Shown piece by piece: positions 6,664 to 43,598 of a stretch of DNA of 64,000 bases. Origin of the DNA: an uncultured Flavobacteriaceae bacterium (GTDB lineage: Bacteria; Bacteroidota; Bacteroidia; Flavobacteriales; Flavobacteriaceae); contig CANNAC010000006.1 in assembly GCA_947502495.1 (NCBI GenBank), forward strand, positions 1 through 64,000, given 5' to 3'. Positions within the stretch are counted from its first letter, which is position 1. Every line of letters begins with the position of its first letter. The translations under genes were made by a program, and so were the position numbers. Below the pieces are notes generated by a model. The model saw only the letters and a list, made by a program, of their open reading frames with translations. It was not told the DNA's origin and made no database searches.

Positions 6664-8277
6664 ATGAAAAAATTATCCACCTTACTCGTACTACTATTTA
6701 GTTTTTATTGTTACAGTCAAGAATATGAGACTGTTGATGTTGTAACTATTAATAAAAACAATTATGAAGTTAAAGCAGAAATAAAATCAGCAACATTTAA
6801 AATTCAAATTATAAATAATGCTGGACAAAATGCGCAAAGCAGTATTAATTTCACCTATGACATAGACAGTACTATTGTTTCCAATACTATTATTCCTTTA
6901 ATAAAAAAGCTAGACACACTTCCTGATGGCTATGTACTTTCTGAACCAGAAACAGCAAAATTAGATGCGCTTTTAGAAAAGATAAAAAAGAAAAAAAAAG
7001 CCTTACGAACAACAACAGAAATAATTGATGGAGAGCCTGCGCAATATTCCGGTAAAATAACTTTAAACAACAAAGTTAAGTTAACTAAAGGTCCGGACAA
7101 ATGCCCTAATATTGGTCAAGACCAAGAAAACATCGCTAAAACGGACGATGTTCTTAATATTAAGAAAGCATATATTAATTTTTTCAACAATAAAGCTTCA
7201 ACTATCGTATTAGAAGGATATATAAATGATGATAAAGTAACAGTAGTCAATAATAACTTTAGCGTTCCCATTCGTTTTTTTAATAATTACGGAAGTAAGA
7301 CGCCATTTAAAACGGATAAAAACACTTGTTATGAACTAGATTATAATGACGTCTTTGATTTTGACTCTGACCAGCACTTTAATTATTCTATAGCTAATGA
7401 TGAGTTACATTTTGACAAAGACACTTTAGTACAACCTGTTATACAAAGACAATTTTTTGATTTCTTTACGGCTGTTCTCTTCACTGACGTTATGGCTTTT
7501 GACAACAACAATAGCAACAGTCTGGTTAATGCGCAAGCGAAATTACTTTTACCATTAAACCAAAAAAACTCAACATTCAAAGGCGTCAACTATACGGTTT
7601 TCAGACAAGTTCTTGCCGAAGCTAATATTGCACTTTATAATGGGTCTAATGATACTTTTAGAACTATTGAAATCACCAAAAACAGTACAGAAAACGGCAA
7701 CTTTAGTAATTTTGATTTATTAACCAAAAACAATATTAATGGAACCTTACATCTAGACGTGCTATCTCATGAAGCGAAACGTTTTTTCTCCCATATTTCT
7801 TTAGGTTATCAAGGTACATTTTATAGAACGGCACTTAATATCACTGAAATTAATTCTGGTACAGGAGAAGAAGCCAAAGATGATGCAAGTATTTCTTCTT
7901 TAATATCAACTAGCCATGGTCCTTATTTCAATGTAGAAATAAGACCACAAACCAACTTTGGAGCAGATATAAGTGTAAGCTTAAATAAACTATCCTATAG
8001 TGGAGCAAATAGTATAGGTGATATAAATATAAAAGAAACCATGGTAGACAATGGTGTTGAGCATTTTGGATTTCAATATAACGTTGTTAATATCAAGGCA
8101 GATTTTTACTGGCTTACAAATCCAGAAAAAGGAAAAAAAGGCGGTGTTTTTGCTAGGTTAGGTGCTTTTTACCACACACAAAACTATGAAGTTTACCCAC
8201 AACTTATGGTAGGTTATGCGACTAACTTAACTTCCTTTGTCAATAAGTTTAGTCCGAAGGCGAAAGAAAACAAATAG
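6664..8277 (+). CDS. Secreted protein of unknown function, probably cell-envelope
   Basis: Protein of 537 residues with a clear signal peptide (MKKLSTLLVLLFSFYCYSQ) and no lipobox Cys. I do not recognise a family. The N-terminal third is rich in Lys and Asn and contains a Lys-rich stretch (KIKKKKKAL near residue 108). The last about 170 residues alternate aromatic and small residues in a beta-strand pattern (HISLGYQGTFYRTAL, GAFYHTQNYEVYPQLMVGY) that would fit outer-membrane or surface beta structure. No T9SS C-terminal sorting domain is visible. It is transcribed alone, and 5 nt after the stop begins the structured repeat at 8283-8441, which could therefore be part of its 3' UTR. Confidence 0.75.
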   Translation: MKKLSTLLVLLFSFYCYSQEYETVDVVTINKNNYEVKAEIKSATFKIQIINNAGQNAQSSINFTYDIDSTIVSNTIIPLIKKLDTLPDGYVLSEPETAKLDALLEKIKKKKKALRTTTEIIDGEPAQYSGKITLNNKVKLTKGPDKCPNIGQDQENIAKTDDVLNIKKAYINFFNNKASTIVLEGYINDDKVTVVNNNFSVPIRFFNNYGSKTPFKTDKNTCYELDYNDVFDFDSDQHFNYSIANDELHFDKDTLVQPVIQRQFFDFFTAVLFTDVMAFDNNNSNSLVNAQAKLLLPLNQKNSTFKGVNYTVFRQVLAEANIALYNGSNDTFRTIEITKNSTENGNFSNFDLLTKNNINGTLHLDVLSHEAKRFFSHISLGYQGTFYRTALNITEINSGTGEEAKDDASISSLISTSHGPYFNVEIRPQTNFGADISVSLNKLSYSGANSIGDINIKETMVDNGVEHFGFQYNVVNIKADFYWLTNPEKGKKGGVFARLGAFYHTQNYEVYPQLMVGYATNLTSFVNKFSPKAKENK

Positions 8278-8282
8278 GCCTC

Positions 8283-8441
8283 GCGTTAAGGATTGATGCG
8301 GCATCCTTTTGTTTTGGATAGAACGGCATTTTAAAAGCACATATAGACTTGCTAAGAAAGAATATCTTTCTTGCAATACCAAAAACAAAAGATACAGCGG
8401 AAAGCCTGACGCTACGGAGTCTTTACGAAGTAGGGTAACGC
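8283..8441 (+). ncRNA. Structured interspersed element, copy 1
   Basis: A 159-nt element bounded by GCGTTA (8283-8288) and its complement TAACGC (8436-8441). Inside, a 14-bp central stem pairs 8303-8317 with 8379-8393, leaving one bulged C and one bulged A. Within its loop, AAGAAAGA/TCTTTCTT plus flanking GC/GC forms a 10-bp hairpin (8351-8374). A second copy lies at 43390-43546 with the same architecture but different base pairs. It sits between two convergent genes. Whether it acts as RNA or as a mobile DNA repeat is not known. The minus-strand open frame over it has no coding features. Confidence 0.55.
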
Positions 8442-8465
8442 CCAAAGAATTAAACGAGAAGAAAT

Positions 8466-8523: not shown

Positions 8524-11496
8524 TTACGCTTCTAACGCTTCGTCTTCTTTTTCTTTAATTTTTAATGCATCTGTTGCACCAGCTCTTTTTACAGAATCGT
8601 ACATGATTGGCGTTGCAATAAATAATGAAGAGTATGTACCTACTACTACACCTACAATTAATGCGAACATAAATCCTCTAATAGAATCTCCACCAAAGAT
8701 AAAGATTGCTAATAATACTACTAAAGTAGTTAAAGAAGTATTTAATGTTCTACTTAATGTACTGCTTAATGATGCGTTAATTACTTTGTCAAAATCCCAA
8801 GTAGTATGTTCGTTGAAGAATTCTCTAATTCTATCAAATACAACTACTGTATCATTTAATGAGTAACCAATTACCGTTAAGATTGCTGCGATAAATGCTT
8901 GGTCAATTTCCATTGTAAATGGCATGAATTTGTATGTAAGAGAAAATACACCTAATACAATTAATACATCATGAAATACTGCTGCTACTGCACCAAGTGA
9001 GAATTGCCATCTTTTGAAACGGAATAAGATATATAAGAATACTACGATTAGAGATCCTAAAATTGCCCAGAATGAAGCTCTTTTAATATCATCTGCAATA
9101 GAAGGACTTACTTTGTAAGATTCCATTACACCAATTTGTTTATCCTCATCGTTAAGATTGATAAAGTCATCATAACTAATGTTAGATAAATGTGGTTGTA
9201 ATGCGTTAAATAATTTATGTCTGATTTCTTCATCTACTTCTGAAGAAGCTTCATTAATCTTATACTTCGTAGTAATTTTCACATCATTACTTGTACCAAT
9301 TAATTTTGCATCTGCACTACCGAAGACTTCTTCAGCAGAAAGTACTCCCGCAATTTCTGAAGCGCTTACTGGTTGCTCAAAACGTACTTGGTATGTTCTA
9401 CCTCCGACGAAATCTACACCTTGATCTAATTTATTTGTAAATAAAGAACCTAAACTTAAAAGAATAAAAACTCCAGAAACAATATAAGCGATCTTACGTT
9501 TCTTTAAGAAATCGATATTTATATTTCTAAATAAGTTTTTAGTTAAGCTTGTTGAGAAGTCTAATTTCCCTCCTTTATTAGAATACCAATCTACTAATAA
9601 TCTTGTAATAAAGATTGCAGTAAATAATGAAGTTGCAATACCAATAATTAATGTAGTTGCAAAACCTTTAATTGGTCCTGTACCAAATACGAATAAAATT
9701 AAAGCCGTTAAACCTGTTGTAACGTTGGCATCTAAAATAGAAGAAAGTGCGTTTGAAAAACCATCTTTTATAGAAGTAGCTTGATCTTTACCTTTAGCGA
9801 GTTCTTCTCGAATACGCTCAAAAATAAGTACGTTTGCATCTACAGACATACCAATAGTTAATACGATACCTGCAATTCCAGGAAGCGTTAATACAGCTCC
9901 TAAACCAGAAAGGATACCAAATATTAATAAGATATTTAATGCCATTGCAATATCTGCAAATAAACCAGCTTTACCGTAGTATAAAAACATCCATACTAAT
10001 ACTAATGCCAATGCAATTGCGAAAGACATTTTACCACTATCAATAGCTTCTTGTCCTAAAGAAGGACCAACTACATCACTTTGAATAATATCTGCTCTAG
10101 CTGGTAATTTACCTGCTCTTAAAACGTTTGCTAAATCGGTTGCTTCATTCAGTGTGAAGTTTCCAGAAATTTGAGAGTTACCACCTGCAATTGCTCCTGT
10201 TGTTACTCCAGGTGCAGAATATACTACGTCATCTAAAACAATAGCGATTTGGCTTCTTTGTGTAAAAGCTCTTCCAGTCATTTCTTCCCAGATCTTAGCT
10301 CCTTTACCATTCATTTGCATGCTTACAAGAGGCTTTCCTAAAGGATCATAATCTTGTCTTGCATCTACAACAACGCCACCACCTAATTCTGGTACGTTTT
10401 CTCTATTTGCAATTAATGCATATAAGTCTACTAACTCACTATCTCCTTTTTGTTTTCCGAATGCGAATTTCACATAACGTTGTTCTGCAGGAAGTAAGTT
10501 TCTTACTTGTGGCATATTTAAATACTCACTAATAATTTCTCTATCGTTAATATTAACTAAAGCAATTGCTGCTGGGTCTTGAGAACCAATTAATTTATCT
10601 AAAAGCGGATTTACAACAACAGCTGTAGAATCTGGATCGTCTCCTAAAAGGTCTGCAATCTTATCTTCTTCTGCTGAAGTTTCTTTTACTTCTTCTGTAT
10701 TTACTTCATTCGATTTTTGAATGCTTTTAATCGTTTCATTCGCTTCTACTAAAAAGCTATTGAAGATTGTTTTGTTATACACATCCCAAAACTCTAATTG
10801 CGCAGTACTTTGTAATAATTTAGTAGCACGCTCTGCATCTTTAACTCCTGGTAATTCTACTAAGATACGTCCTGAGTTCCCCATACGTTGAATATTTGGA
10901 GATGTTACACCAAACTCATCAATACGTTTACGTAATACTTCGAAAGCCGAAACAATAGACTCATCAATTTTTCTTGAGATTACTGGCTTCACCTCAGAAT
11001 CGGTCATATTTCCATCAATCTCACCATCTAAAGCTCTCGTATAAAATATGTCTGGCGAAGCTAATTTAGCATCTCCTTTTATAGCTTCGAAAGAAGTATA
11101 AAAATCTTCTAAATATGTGTTCTGACTGTTTTTCTGAAGCTCTGAAGCATCATCTAATGCTTTATTAAAAATAGGATCTGTTGTATTATTAGCTAATCCT
11201 TTTAATATATCTTTTACAGAAACTTGTAATATAACGTTAACTCCACCTTTAAGGTCAAGTCCTAAGTTCATCGCATTTTCTTTTACCTCATTATAGGTAT
11301 ATTTTGCTATTCCAATGTTATACACTTCTTCGTTAGCTAGCGAATCTAAGTACGTGTTTTCTTTTACAGAATCTCCCTTTGCATAAGCTGCTGCATTGCT
11401 TTCTATACTACTGTTTTTAAACGTGAATGATAGTTGGTAAATACTTACCAAACCAAACAATAGTGCAAATAATTTTACTAATCCTTTGTTTTGCAT
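8524..11496 (-). CDS. secDF: Fused protein translocase subunit SecDF
   Basis: Inner-membrane protein of 990 residues that uses the proton-motive force to drive late steps of Sec export. The SecD half has an N-terminal transmembrane helix, the DLKGGV motif (about residue 78), a long periplasmic P1 region with RKRIDEFGV and RILVELPG, and a five-helix block with SVDANVLIFERIREE. The SecF half starts near residue 655 with its own first helix, a VDFVGGRTYQV segment and YSLNDTVVVFDRIREF. Fused SecDF of about 1000 residues is normal in Bacteroidota. A charged insertion between P1 motifs (about residues 255-310) carries the usual variability. A TATATTTG box precedes it on the minus strand. Confidence 0.97.
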   Translation of the reverse strand: MQNKGLVKLFALLFGLVSIYQLSFTFKNSSIESNAAAYAKGDSVKENTYLDSLANEEVYNIGIAKYTYNEVKENAMNLGLDLKGGVNVILQVSVKDILKGLANNTTDPIFNKALDDASELQKNSQNTYLEDFYTSFEAIKGDAKLASPDIFYTRALDGEIDGNMTDSEVKPVISRKIDESIVSAFEVLRKRIDEFGVTSPNIQRMGNSGRILVELPGVKDAERATKLLQSTAQLEFWDVYNKTIFNSFLVEANETIKSIQKSNEVNTEEVKETSAEEDKIADLLGDDPDSTAVVVNPLLDKLIGSQDPAAIALVNINDREIISEYLNMPQVRNLLPAEQRYVKFAFGKQKGDSELVDLYALIANRENVPELGGGVVVDARQDYDPLGKPLVSMQMNGKGAKIWEEMTGRAFTQRSQIAIVLDDVVYSAPGVTTGAIAGGNSQISGNFTLNEATDLANVLRAGKLPARADIIQSDVVGPSLGQEAIDSGKMSFAIALALVLVWMFLYYGKAGLFADIAMALNILLIFGILSGLGAVLTLPGIAGIVLTIGMSVDANVLIFERIREELAKGKDQATSIKDGFSNALSSILDANVTTGLTALILFVFGTGPIKGFATTLIIGIATSLFTAIFITRLLVDWYSNKGGKLDFSTSLTKNLFRNINIDFLKKRKIAYIVSGVFILLSLGSLFTNKLDQGVDFVGGRTYQVRFEQPVSASEIAGVLSAEEVFGSADAKLIGTSNDVKITTKYKINEASSEVDEEIRHKLFNALQPHLSNISYDDFINLNDEDKQIGVMESYKVSPSIADDIKRASFWAILGSLIVVFLYILFRFKRWQFSLGAVAAVFHDVLIVLGVFSLTYKFMPFTMEIDQAFIAAILTVIGYSLNDTVVVFDRIREFFNEHTTWDFDKVINASLSSTLSRTLNTSLTTLVVLLAIFIFGGDSIRGFMFALIVGVVVGTYSSLFIATPIMYDSVKRAGATDALKIKEKEDEALEA

Positions 11497-42169: not shown

Positions 42170-42928
42170 TTATCTAATAAACACTAAGTCTTTTTCTGTA
42201 GACATTGCCTCGCTAAAACCATAACCTTCATAATGGAAGCCTTTTAAATCTTCTGTGGTTTTAGCATTTGTATCTACAATATATCTAGCCATAGAACCTC
42301 TAGCTTGTTTTGCAAAAAACGAAATCACTTTATATTCTCCGTTCTTTAAATCTTTAAAATTAGCAGTAATTACGGGTACTTTTAAAGCTTTCACATCTAT
42401 CGCTTTAAAATACTCGTTACTTGCAAGGTTTAAAAATAGTTCGTCTTCTTCTAGTTCTTCGTTTAAAGCTTGTGTCACTTTCTTTTTCCAGAACTCGTAT
42501 AGATTTTTATTTTTACCAACAGGCATTTTTGTGCCCATTTCTAGTCGGTAAGCTTGCATTAAATCTAAGGGTTTTAAAACACCATATAAACCGGAAAGGA
42601 TACGAACGGTATCTTGTAAAGTATCTAGTTTTTCTGCCGGAATGGTATGCGCATTTAAACCTTTATAGACATCTCCCGAAAAAGTATAGACTGCAGGTCT
42701 TGCATTTTCTTTGGTAAACGGTAATTGCCATTCTTGATTACGCTCGTAATTTAGTTGTCCTAAATTATCGGAAATATGCATAAGCGTAGATAAGCTTTTT
42801 GCTGATTTCTTTTTTAACAGTTTATTTAAGCGTTCGGCTTCGTTTAAAAAAGTAGCTTCTGTGCTTTTTGTGGTTGGCAATTGCGTTTCAAAATCCAAGG
42901 ACTTTGCTGGGGATAGTACTAGTTTCAT
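42170..42928 (-). CDS. yaaA: Peroxide stress protein YaaA (DUF328/UPF0246)
   Basis: Cytosolic protein of 252 residues of the YaaA family, which in E. coli lowers free iron during peroxide stress. Typical motifs are MKLVLSPAKSLDFE at the start, FSGDVYKGLNA, LSGLYGVLKPLDLMQAYRLEMGTK (segment about residues 110-133), NLASNEYFKAID, VISFFAKQARGSMARYI and DLKGFHYEGYGF. Length is standard. It ends exactly at the convergent bTHX gene. A perfect TTTCCG dyad lies about 20 bp upstream of its start. Confidence 0.94.
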   Translation of the reverse strand: MKLVLSPAKSLDFETQLPTTKSTEATFLNEAERLNKLLKKKSAKSLSTLMHISDNLGQLNYERNQEWQLPFTKENARPAVYTFSGDVYKGLNAHTIPAEKLDTLQDTVRILSGLYGVLKPLDLMQAYRLEMGTKMPVGKNKNLYEFWKKKVTQALNEELEEDELFLNLASNEYFKAIDVKALKVPVITANFKDLKNGEYKVISFFAKQARGSMARYIVDTNAKTTEDLKGFHYEGYGFSEAMSTEKDLVFIR

Positions 42929-42964: not shown

Positions 42965-43093
42965 TCTCATCATTTAAGTAAAAATCTATTTCTTTACCCT
43001 CAAATTTACAACTTACTTCTTTACTTTTTAAATATGTAAACTGAAATATTCTATGCTTGTATAAGTGTTTACTATATAATTAATTTCTTTATG

Positions 43094-43256
43094 TTCATTT
43101 TGCCTTGATGCAAAACGAACCAAAAGATCACAATCAAAATTAGGAAATTGCTAAAGCAACATTCTCTTTCGAGATTGCATGCTTGAAGCTGCGCTTCGCA
43201 TCTTCATCTCTTCGTTCTTTATTTCTGAATTTTGATGTTTTCCGACTATGTCGGAA
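43094..43256. repeat. Hairpin-bearing repeat, unclassified
   Basis: TTCATTTTGC pairs with GCAAAACGAA (43094-43119, one mismatch). ATCAAAATTAGGAAA (43133-43147) pairs at 13 of 15 positions with TTTCTGAATTTTGAT (43222-43236), enclosing about 74 nt that include a GAAGCTGCGCTTC hairpin. A final TTCCGAC/GTCGGAA hairpin follows at 43240-43256. The phrase of codons around GCAAAACGAACCAAAAGATC gives a spurious QNEPKD-type peptide that I recall seeing repeatedly in flavobacterial intergenic DNA. Confidence 0.5.
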
Positions 43257-43389
43257 TTTCAAGTACGAAATAATATCATTTATTATTTCATAACTTCTTT
43301 ACGAATTTACAAATAGCACACAATTAAAGAATGTTGAAGCAATAGTAATTTTATAAGCTAAAATATAATTTAACTATGAAATGGAATTT

Positions 43390-43546
43390 GCGTTAGTGAT
43401 TGCAGTGATATCCTTTTTTTGTGTCCGTTCGAGTGATGCGACCAAAGGAGCATTGTATCGAGAACACGAAAAAAAGATTTAACGAAAAGCACGACATTTT
43501 TTTCCTGCGAGGTTTTAAAAACCTTGTAGGTATAAAAATGGAACGC
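43390..43546 (+). ncRNA. Structured interspersed element, copy 2
   Basis: A 157-nt relative of the element at 8283-8441. Ends are GCGTT (43390-43394) and AACGC (43542-43546). The central stem pairs 43410-43424 with 43464-43478 (14 bp, conserved bulged C, different base pairs from copy 1). The 3' block GAT..A.CG.AAAGC..GAC is shared, as is AACGCCCAA at the end. The tip carries a 12-bp hairpin (43504-43530) unlike that of copy 1. It lies 52 nt from the rluD stop, in antisense orientation to rluD. Confidence 0.55.
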
Positions 43547-43598
43547 CCAACTTCACATTCGTTCCGTTGGGCAAACCTATTCTTTACATACTTATTTA

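Follow-up and report, generated by a model that had tools for sequence, protein, structure and literature searches.

The window, a 64,000-nucleotide stretch of an uncultured Flavobacteriaceae genome (contig CANNAC010000006.1), contains two segments, at 8283-8441 (copy 1) and 43390-43546 (copy 2), which the original prediction described as a new-looking structured family and possibly a structured ncRNA or a hairpin-based mobile element. They raise the question of which family is present here, what the complete element looks like, and what accounts for its place in the genome.

Family identity and complete architecture

The end stems (GCGTTA at 8283-8288 with TAACGC at 8436-8441, and GCGTT from 43390 with AACGC ending at 43546) can be read directly, and the P2 arms with their bulged C, the 3' block GAT..A.CG.AAAGC..GAC and the AACGCCCAA end were found in both copies as predicted, with tips that bear no relation to each other. 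The central stems do pair, but not fully as had been claimed, the 3' arm carrying one surplus unpaired base (A in copy 1, G in copy 2). An Rfam scan of the window at gathering thresholds gave two matches, both to RF01705 (Flavo-1): 8272-8415 at 45.4 bits for copy 1 and 43385-43500 at 50.9 bits for copy 2, against a gathering score of 42. The E-values of the two copies were 4.6e-08 and 1.5e-06, and both aligned over the full length of the model (positions 1-76) with the P2 pairs aligned. The two copies are, with near certainty, members of Flavo-1. Since both exceed the gathering score, an unrelated new family is ruled out; the prediction was right about a real, covarying structured family and about its own suspicion of Flavo-1, and wrong about novelty as such. 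Further copies were found and their paired positions covary, the two points on which the prediction had staked itself.

Weinberg et al. 2010 (PMC2864571) place Flavo-1 among the likely RNAs of Bacteroidetes and outside the cis-regulatory ones, and the relevant part of PMC9029176 gives it as an abundant sRNA family with no function assigned; its Rfam type label is "Gene; sRNA". The finding is thus a member of a known family without known function and therefore not categorically new. New, within the literature searched, are the full junction, a sister type, a stop-codon rule and slow evolution in place. Searches on flavobacterial palindromic or miniature inverted repeats gave no obvious report of the element among the matches listed (for one search, the best 15 of 423). 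The features of the two loci are as follows.

6664..8277, +, left gene of copy 1, 537 aa, stop codon 5 nt ahead of copy 1; no Pfam match for this gene
8283..8441, +, copy 1, whole element, P1-P2-P3 three-way junction (Rfam RF01705 match, parsed sequence)
8283..8288, +, copy 1 P1 5' strand GCGTTA, partner 8436-8441 TAACGC (sequence)
8289..8309, +, copy 1 P2 5' core AGGATTGATGCGGCATCCTTT
8310..8387, +, copy 1 variable P2 tip, 78 nt (parsed)
8388..8410, +, copy 1 P2 3' core and junction AAAGATACAGCGGAAAGCCTGAC
8411..8435, +, copy 1 P3, variable hairpin, 25 nt, mostly beyond the end of the Rfam match (8415)
8436..8445, +, copy 1 P1 3' strand and conserved tail TAACGCCCAA
8464..8504, no strand, separate terminator-like inverted repeat between copy 1 and secDF (sequence, inverted self-match), retained in an element-free ortholog (locus L093)
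8524..11496, -, right gene of copy 1, SecDF, convergent
42170..42928, -, left gene of copy 2, peroxide stress protein YaaA
43390..43546, +, copy 2, whole element (Rfam RF01705 match, three-way-junction MFE fold)
43390..43416, +, copy 2 P1 5' strand and P2 5' core
43417..43472, +, copy 2 variable tip, 56 nt, with a recurring TTCGAGTG..TATCGAGAACA module
43473..43495, +, copy 2 P2 3' core
43496..43540, +, copy 2 P3, 45 nt, including a CCTGCGAGGTTTTAAAAACCTTGTAGG hairpin
43541..43550, +, copy 2 P1 3' strand and tail GAACGCCCAA
43599..44639, -, right gene of copy 2, RNA pseudouridylate synthase with S4 domain, stop towards copy 2

About 300 bp to the left of copy 2 (window 43080-43390) are absent from the orthologous place in genome G004 but present there, at least in part, in G001; this stretch is probably another repeat.

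The Rfam model spans hairpin P2 with short flanks, leaving P1 and the variable P3 outside. The full element was shown to be a three-way junction, made of a closing stem P1, a P2 arm with purine-rich internal loops and a free tip, and a free hairpin P3. Among the 46 copies of the own genome a recurrent frame reads GCGTTA, two variable bases, GATTG, core, a tip of 9-86 nt, core, AAAGC, two variable bases, GAC, the variable hairpin P3 and TAACGCCCAA; three of these copies (L001-L003) have a TAGCC.. form nearer the Rfam consensus. P1 covaries among the own copies (GTGTTA/TAACAC, GCATTA/GAATGC, GCAATA/GATTGC, GCGTGA/TCACGC), and the same holds for the two variable bases at the foot of P2; the pattern missed the 3' end of P1 or matched it by chance in about 9 of the 46, several of which can be read by eye.

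Two copies alone are thin evidence of covariation, and the pairing was confirmed in 94 distinct cores pooled from three genomes (38 elements from G000, 38 from G004 and 34 from G001), in which the variable P2 pairs swap between G-C, A-T, C-G and T-A, the search anchors fixing some of the paired letters. A more strictly selected set of 90 cores had 98.5% Watson-Crick cells, against a shuffled mean of 77.9% and maximum of 80.3%, a value that leans high because the 90 were chosen by likeness to the consensus, paired letters included. Folding gave the three-way junction directly for copy 2 (MFE -51.9, z -4.9, none of 200 shuffles equal), with a worse fold of the reverse strand (z -3.0). The fold of copy 1 is weaker (z -2.2, 4 of 200 shuffles equal), and its MFE structure differs from the junction fold.

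Several Flavo-1 elements contain a 20-bp palindrome of approximately CCTGCCTGCCGGCAGGCAGG. In L055, L219 and L220 it lies at one common point of the stem, in the 3' arm of P2 after AAAGA; it occurs elsewhere in L052, in L226 (within P1), in the L016 ortholog in L190 and in the L047 ortholog in L193. For L052, L055 and L220 the palindrome-free ortholog is 20 bases shorter at that point, with no duplication visible.

A sister form and the spread of the class

The own genome holds at least 46 Flavo-1 matches at E <=0.001, 39 of them above the cut-off, a count that is a lower bound, one further own match (L218) scoring 46.6 bits. The model search gave a Flavo-1 match in 34 of 60 relatives; the six other members of the genus carry 9-45 copies each, and the remaining relatives 0-32. 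Across a class sample of 295 genomes, 109 had a match and 69 had one above the cut-off, at most 15 candidates being scored per genome, which makes the copy numbers there lower bounds. Three own copies (L049, L051 and L056) lie near contig ends, and L049 and L051 have an unusually long tip in common, perhaps beside a multi-copy operon. At L034 a short gap separates a SufBD-family gene from a sufS-like aminotransferase class V gene, and an antisense Flavo-1 element occupies this gap; L039, from another genus, has a nearly identical ORF layout.

A search of the own genome with the frame GCGTTANSGATNGNA returned 71 places, 43 exact and 28 with one mismatch (control 25). Among 20 inspected places without an Rfam match, 15 carry what is here called type 2, that is, the Flavo-1 frame around a different P2 of the form GAACGGTTTGTTTGAGCTC .. 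GAGCGAGTAGTGAAAGC, with tandem GA/GA steps and covarying stems. None of these 15 loci reached the RF01705 threshold of 42 bits, the best and sole weak match being L213 at 32.9 bits. In 19 sequences (from 20 elements, one long element omitted) 93.0% of cells in the type 2 structure were paired, compared with 74.3% after shuffling and 32-50% for slid versions of the structure. In 72 distinct model-aligned sequences the values were 93.5% and 79.7%; this larger alignment (90 loci) was fitted to the model, and its pair counts therefore lean towards it.

The type 2 model identified 27 places in the own genome, and 30 of the 60 relatives also gave matches; some weak ones on this list (for example in G040) may be type 1, and the list may overlap that of type 1 in weak matches. 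If type 1 and type 2 matches are summed, the class reaches up to about 70 per Lacinutrix genome. An exact 24-base type 2 motif was present in 69 stretches from Lacinutrix, Winogradskyella, Psychroserpens, Algibacter, Olleya, Flavivirga and relatives. The type 2 model scores the two type 1 window copies weakly (25.5 and 21.4 bits), which supports common descent of both types. Among the matches listed, the types are swapped at three orthologous sites (L013 in G004; L025 and L029 in G001) and the tip is exchanged at one (L014). In L216 and L054 the common frame holds what is possibly a third P2 interior, TTAGCTTTTGGC..GCCAAAACTA or similar.

Strand preference and position at gene ends

The Rfam strand folds better than its complement in 34 of 42 own elements with RNA parameters and in 35 of 42 with DNA parameters. 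Wobble pairs point the same way, with 28 G.T against 10 A.C over both types (p 0.005, related rows included). Specifically, type 1 gave 18 against 6 in the 94 cores and 8 against 3 in the stricter set (p 0.23), and type 2 gave 10 against 4 outside two conserved wobble positions (p 0.18). Together, the strand bias in folding and wobble favours one functional single strand, and does not favour RNA over DNA.

Positions were counted from longest-ORF calls for strict-frame elements of both types, 40 of the 42 own elements being used. Twenty-two lay between two opposite-strand genes, 11 between convergent, 5 between co-directional and 2 between divergent genes, and in 33 of the 40 the 3' end of the element pointed towards the stop of an opposite-strand gene. 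Of these 33 facing stops, 14 were within 11 nt of the element; among gene ends of the other three kinds, 4 of 47 came as near (Fisher p 7e-4). The same tendency was seen in G001 (24 of 29 facing; 11 of 24 within 11 nt against 4 of 34 other ends) and G004 (19 of 25 facing; 7 of 19 against 2 of 31), many copies in these two genomes being orthologs of own copies. A cruder count over the 46 own matches gave -F- 22, +F- 11, +F+ 6 and -F+ 5, with 2 unresolved on the left. In the window, copy 2 directs its 3' end to an opposite-strand stop 51 nt away, and copy 1 sits between convergent genes, 5 nt after the stop of the co-directional left gene and about 80 nt from the secDF stop.

One reading of this arrangement is that a polymerase arriving from the left makes the Rfam-strand fold before the 3' end of the next gene, so that the antisense transcript is stopped or processed there. 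It would account jointly for the orientation bias (33/40), the contact with stop codons and the better-folding strand. However, no U-run was found after the element (the flank consensus is A/T-rich after it, starting AAAT, and TTT before it), so that it is not an intrinsic terminator, and for 22 of the 40 own elements neither neighbouring gene is co-directional. The promoter motif TAnnTTTG upstream on the Rfam strand was also not in excess (6, 1 and 3 occurrences in three genomes, with 7.0, 4.2 and 3.9 expected), and we consider this reading unlikely. On the other strand the motif was mildly in excess in two of the three genomes (7 against 3.1; 6 against 2.3), which would be consistent with promoters serving the genes on the left.

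A trans-acting small RNA family would agree with the Rfam label and with the listing by Weinberg et al. as a likely RNA outside the cis-regulatory class, but the same lack of upstream promoter-motif excess tells against it, as do dozens of copies tied to gene ends. In F. psychrophilum, according to the portion of PMC9723704 that treats Flavo-1, matches occur without distinction in sense or antisense orientation to transcribed regions, and many fall outside any such region. A trans-acting role is accordingly improbable. That portion also reports several 5' transcribed regions that overlap Flavo-1 matches, as might be expected of a 5' cis-regulatory, riboswitch-like element of the next gene. In the own genome, however, the right-hand gene is co-directional in just 7 of 40 elements, and the neighbours that could be identified are unrelated to each other; a riboswitch-like role is disfavoured by the orientation of the elements and seems very remote.

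Inheritance in place, mobility and known repeats

Copy 1 has an orthologous element with a near-identical core in five of the six other genomes of the genus; in G006 the site has no element, the neighbouring terminator being retained. For the own copies as a whole, both flanks were found together for 30 of 46 on G004 stretches and for 28 of 46 on G001 stretches. The element lies between the shared flanks in most, not all, of these stretches, a few places holding something else, and because the stretches were picked around their own Flavo-1 matches, loss is not estimable from the comparison. At L010, compared with L180 (G001), a different hairpin-like sequence takes the orthologous place instead of Flavo-1.

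Many copies are inherited at fixed places, with a core that changes more slowly than its surroundings. The sequence closest to the own core was its ortholog, not an own paralog, in 19 of 24 cases (G004) and 13 of 17 (G001), and a paralog in 4 and 3, respectively, with one tie each; concerted evolution of the copies is mostly excluded by these counts. Among copies matching over at least 90% of the query, divergence from G004 (20 copies) was 4.3 and 5.9% in the two cores, 18.6% in the tip, 11.8% in P3 and 10.5% in the left flank. The corresponding values for G001 (15 copies) were 1.7 and 3.7%, 15.9%, 9.9% and 10.8%. More distant, mostly coding flanks diverge by 7.7-8.9%, and within the element it is the tip that diverges fastest between orthologs.

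Pair changes between orthologs could be compared in 31 of 56 segments, the others having cores of different length or being unparsed. Pairing was retained in 10 double and 9 single changes, and 3 changes were of other kinds; some of the 9 and 3 come from copies shifted by the inserted palindrome. After merging double changes shared by G004 and G001, 8 distinct pairs remain in 4 own copies, and four of them are in L028, where replacement of the whole copy could explain them. At L044, outside this count, one pair is A-T in the own genome, G.T in G001 and G-C in G004. Compensated changes in a hairpin can also come from templated arm-to-arm repair, without selection.

The original prediction of a hairpin-based mobile element holds only in part, in that the element is a dispersed, multi-copy repeat; against it stand the many vertically inherited copies constrained in place, the lack of Y1/RAYT, the one transposase class surveyed, in several copy-rich genomes and a single near-empty site without visible target duplication. 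In its selfish form, the explanation is a non-autonomous single-strand-DNA repeat whose folded strand is recognised in trans by a transposase or recombinase, the fold being kept for mobility alone and the position after stops reflecting target choice or survival. Such a repeat would suit the dispersal of the element in many copies (from 0 to 46 in any one genome, counting the own genome and 60 relatives), the tip and P2-type exchanges at orthologous sites and a better fold that is strand-specific under DNA parameters too. It would likewise suit genome G048, of another family, where a repeated unit of about 390 bp ends in Flavo-1, with identical or nearly identical cores and three copies 83-94% alike; these repeats indicate that spreading has occurred in some lineages. 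The G048 unit (L255-L259, L261) starts with an inverted repeat GTATAAACACACCC..GGTGTGTTTATAC and lies upstream of different genes, some defence-related-looking by eye. A coding reading of the element in G048 was rejected, its frames being unconserved.

Y1_Tnp was present in 21 of the 60 relatives, some of them copy-rich (G003, G004, G012, G040, G052), and once above the cut-off in the own genome, but it was missing from copy-rich G001 (40 copies), G002 (45), G005 (25), G009 (23; 80% complete) and G023 (21), and RAYT was rejected as the mobiliser on this account. A search for transposases next to copies in other genomes found none among ten ORFs at nine loci; eight of these ORFs belong to ordinary families (SufBD, aminotransferase class V, TatC, OmpA, MmeI and others) and two were unmatched. 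No replication-strand bias was seen in G001 (24 against 17, p 0.35, hand count), phage and plasmid records gave no match with one 111-nt query, and viral contigs with exact motifs numbered 0 and 2 for two motifs. At the one near-empty site (about 81% identity), a 22-nt spacer replaces the element between two convergent stop codons, with no clean target duplication. Weighed with the constrained and sometimes in-place compensated cores, these results make a purely selfish repeat possible and somewhat doubtful.

The mechanism that we put forward, tentatively and with less than even confidence, is that of a REP-like cis-acting boundary element at gene ends. The family would have spread as a non-autonomous repeat and would now be kept as a cis-acting boundary structure. 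A fold directly after the stop codon may act on the release of ribosomes, on the 3' ends of mRNAs or on read-through from one gene to the next. Recognition, probably by a putative protein, would be confined to frame and core, which would explain why so many hairpins are tolerated in the tip and in P3. A precedent comes from E. coli, where REPs reduce translation when they lie within 15 nt of a stop codon, as stated in the part of PMC12306157 that cites its ref. 17. Gene-end position, core constraint, compensation in place and site-wise inheritance argue for such a boundary role. On the other side, the better-folding strand is mostly opposite to the mRNA of the gene with the adjacent stop, an antisense placement that sits uneasily with a simple REP-type action on this transcript; 19 of 33 facing stops are more than 11 nt away, and the compensated changes could also arise by templated repair or whole-copy replacement. 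Taken jointly, and again as a proposal that may well fail, Flavo-1 and at least one other interior would be interchangeable within a large three-way-junction class kept by selection at gene 3' ends throughout the Flavobacteriaceae, forming a strand-specific gene-boundary system with a putative recognising protein.

Flavo-1 has been catalogued since 2010 without a function, and the boundaries, sister type, slow evolution and stop-codon rule described here make function testable. Should the element indeed act at gene boundaries, a common group of Bacteroidota would use a single structured element to mark many gene ends, and the Rfam model would cover just one arm and one type of it.

Compared with known systems, the window copies have the P2 hairpin, the internal loops and the Bacteroidota host in common with RF01705, whose model ends at P2; the elements here add P1 (GCGTTA/TAACGC) and P3 to form the three-way junction. 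Type 2 has the frame of Flavo-1 but falls below the RF01705 threshold or is unmatched. MITEs are likewise short, non-coding and multi-copy with inverted ends; in contrast to these, no parent transposon was found and the one compared, near-empty site (about 81% identity) showed no visible target duplication, and the folded core here covaries and is constrained in place. The attC site of integrons is an imperfect single-strand hairpin with a variable terminal part and the motif order TAAC..GTTA; the element resembles it in the imperfect hairpin and the variable terminal part, whereas its end motifs are reversed, GTTA..TAAC. REP/BIME sequences and REPINs of enterobacteria and pseudomonads are likewise dispersed, structured intergenic repeats, many per genome and often just behind a stop. 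Relative to these, the element is larger, forms a three-way junction and is mostly antisense to the adjacent gene; several copy-rich genomes are without RAYT (Y1), and many copies are conserved in position with constrained cores. An inverted type 2 pair about 110 nt apart, in identical arrangement in records of two genera (L308:6800-7057 and L319:4088-4345), resembles paired REPs, and with 14 of 33 facing stops within 11 nt the element shares the REP trait of lying close behind stop codons.
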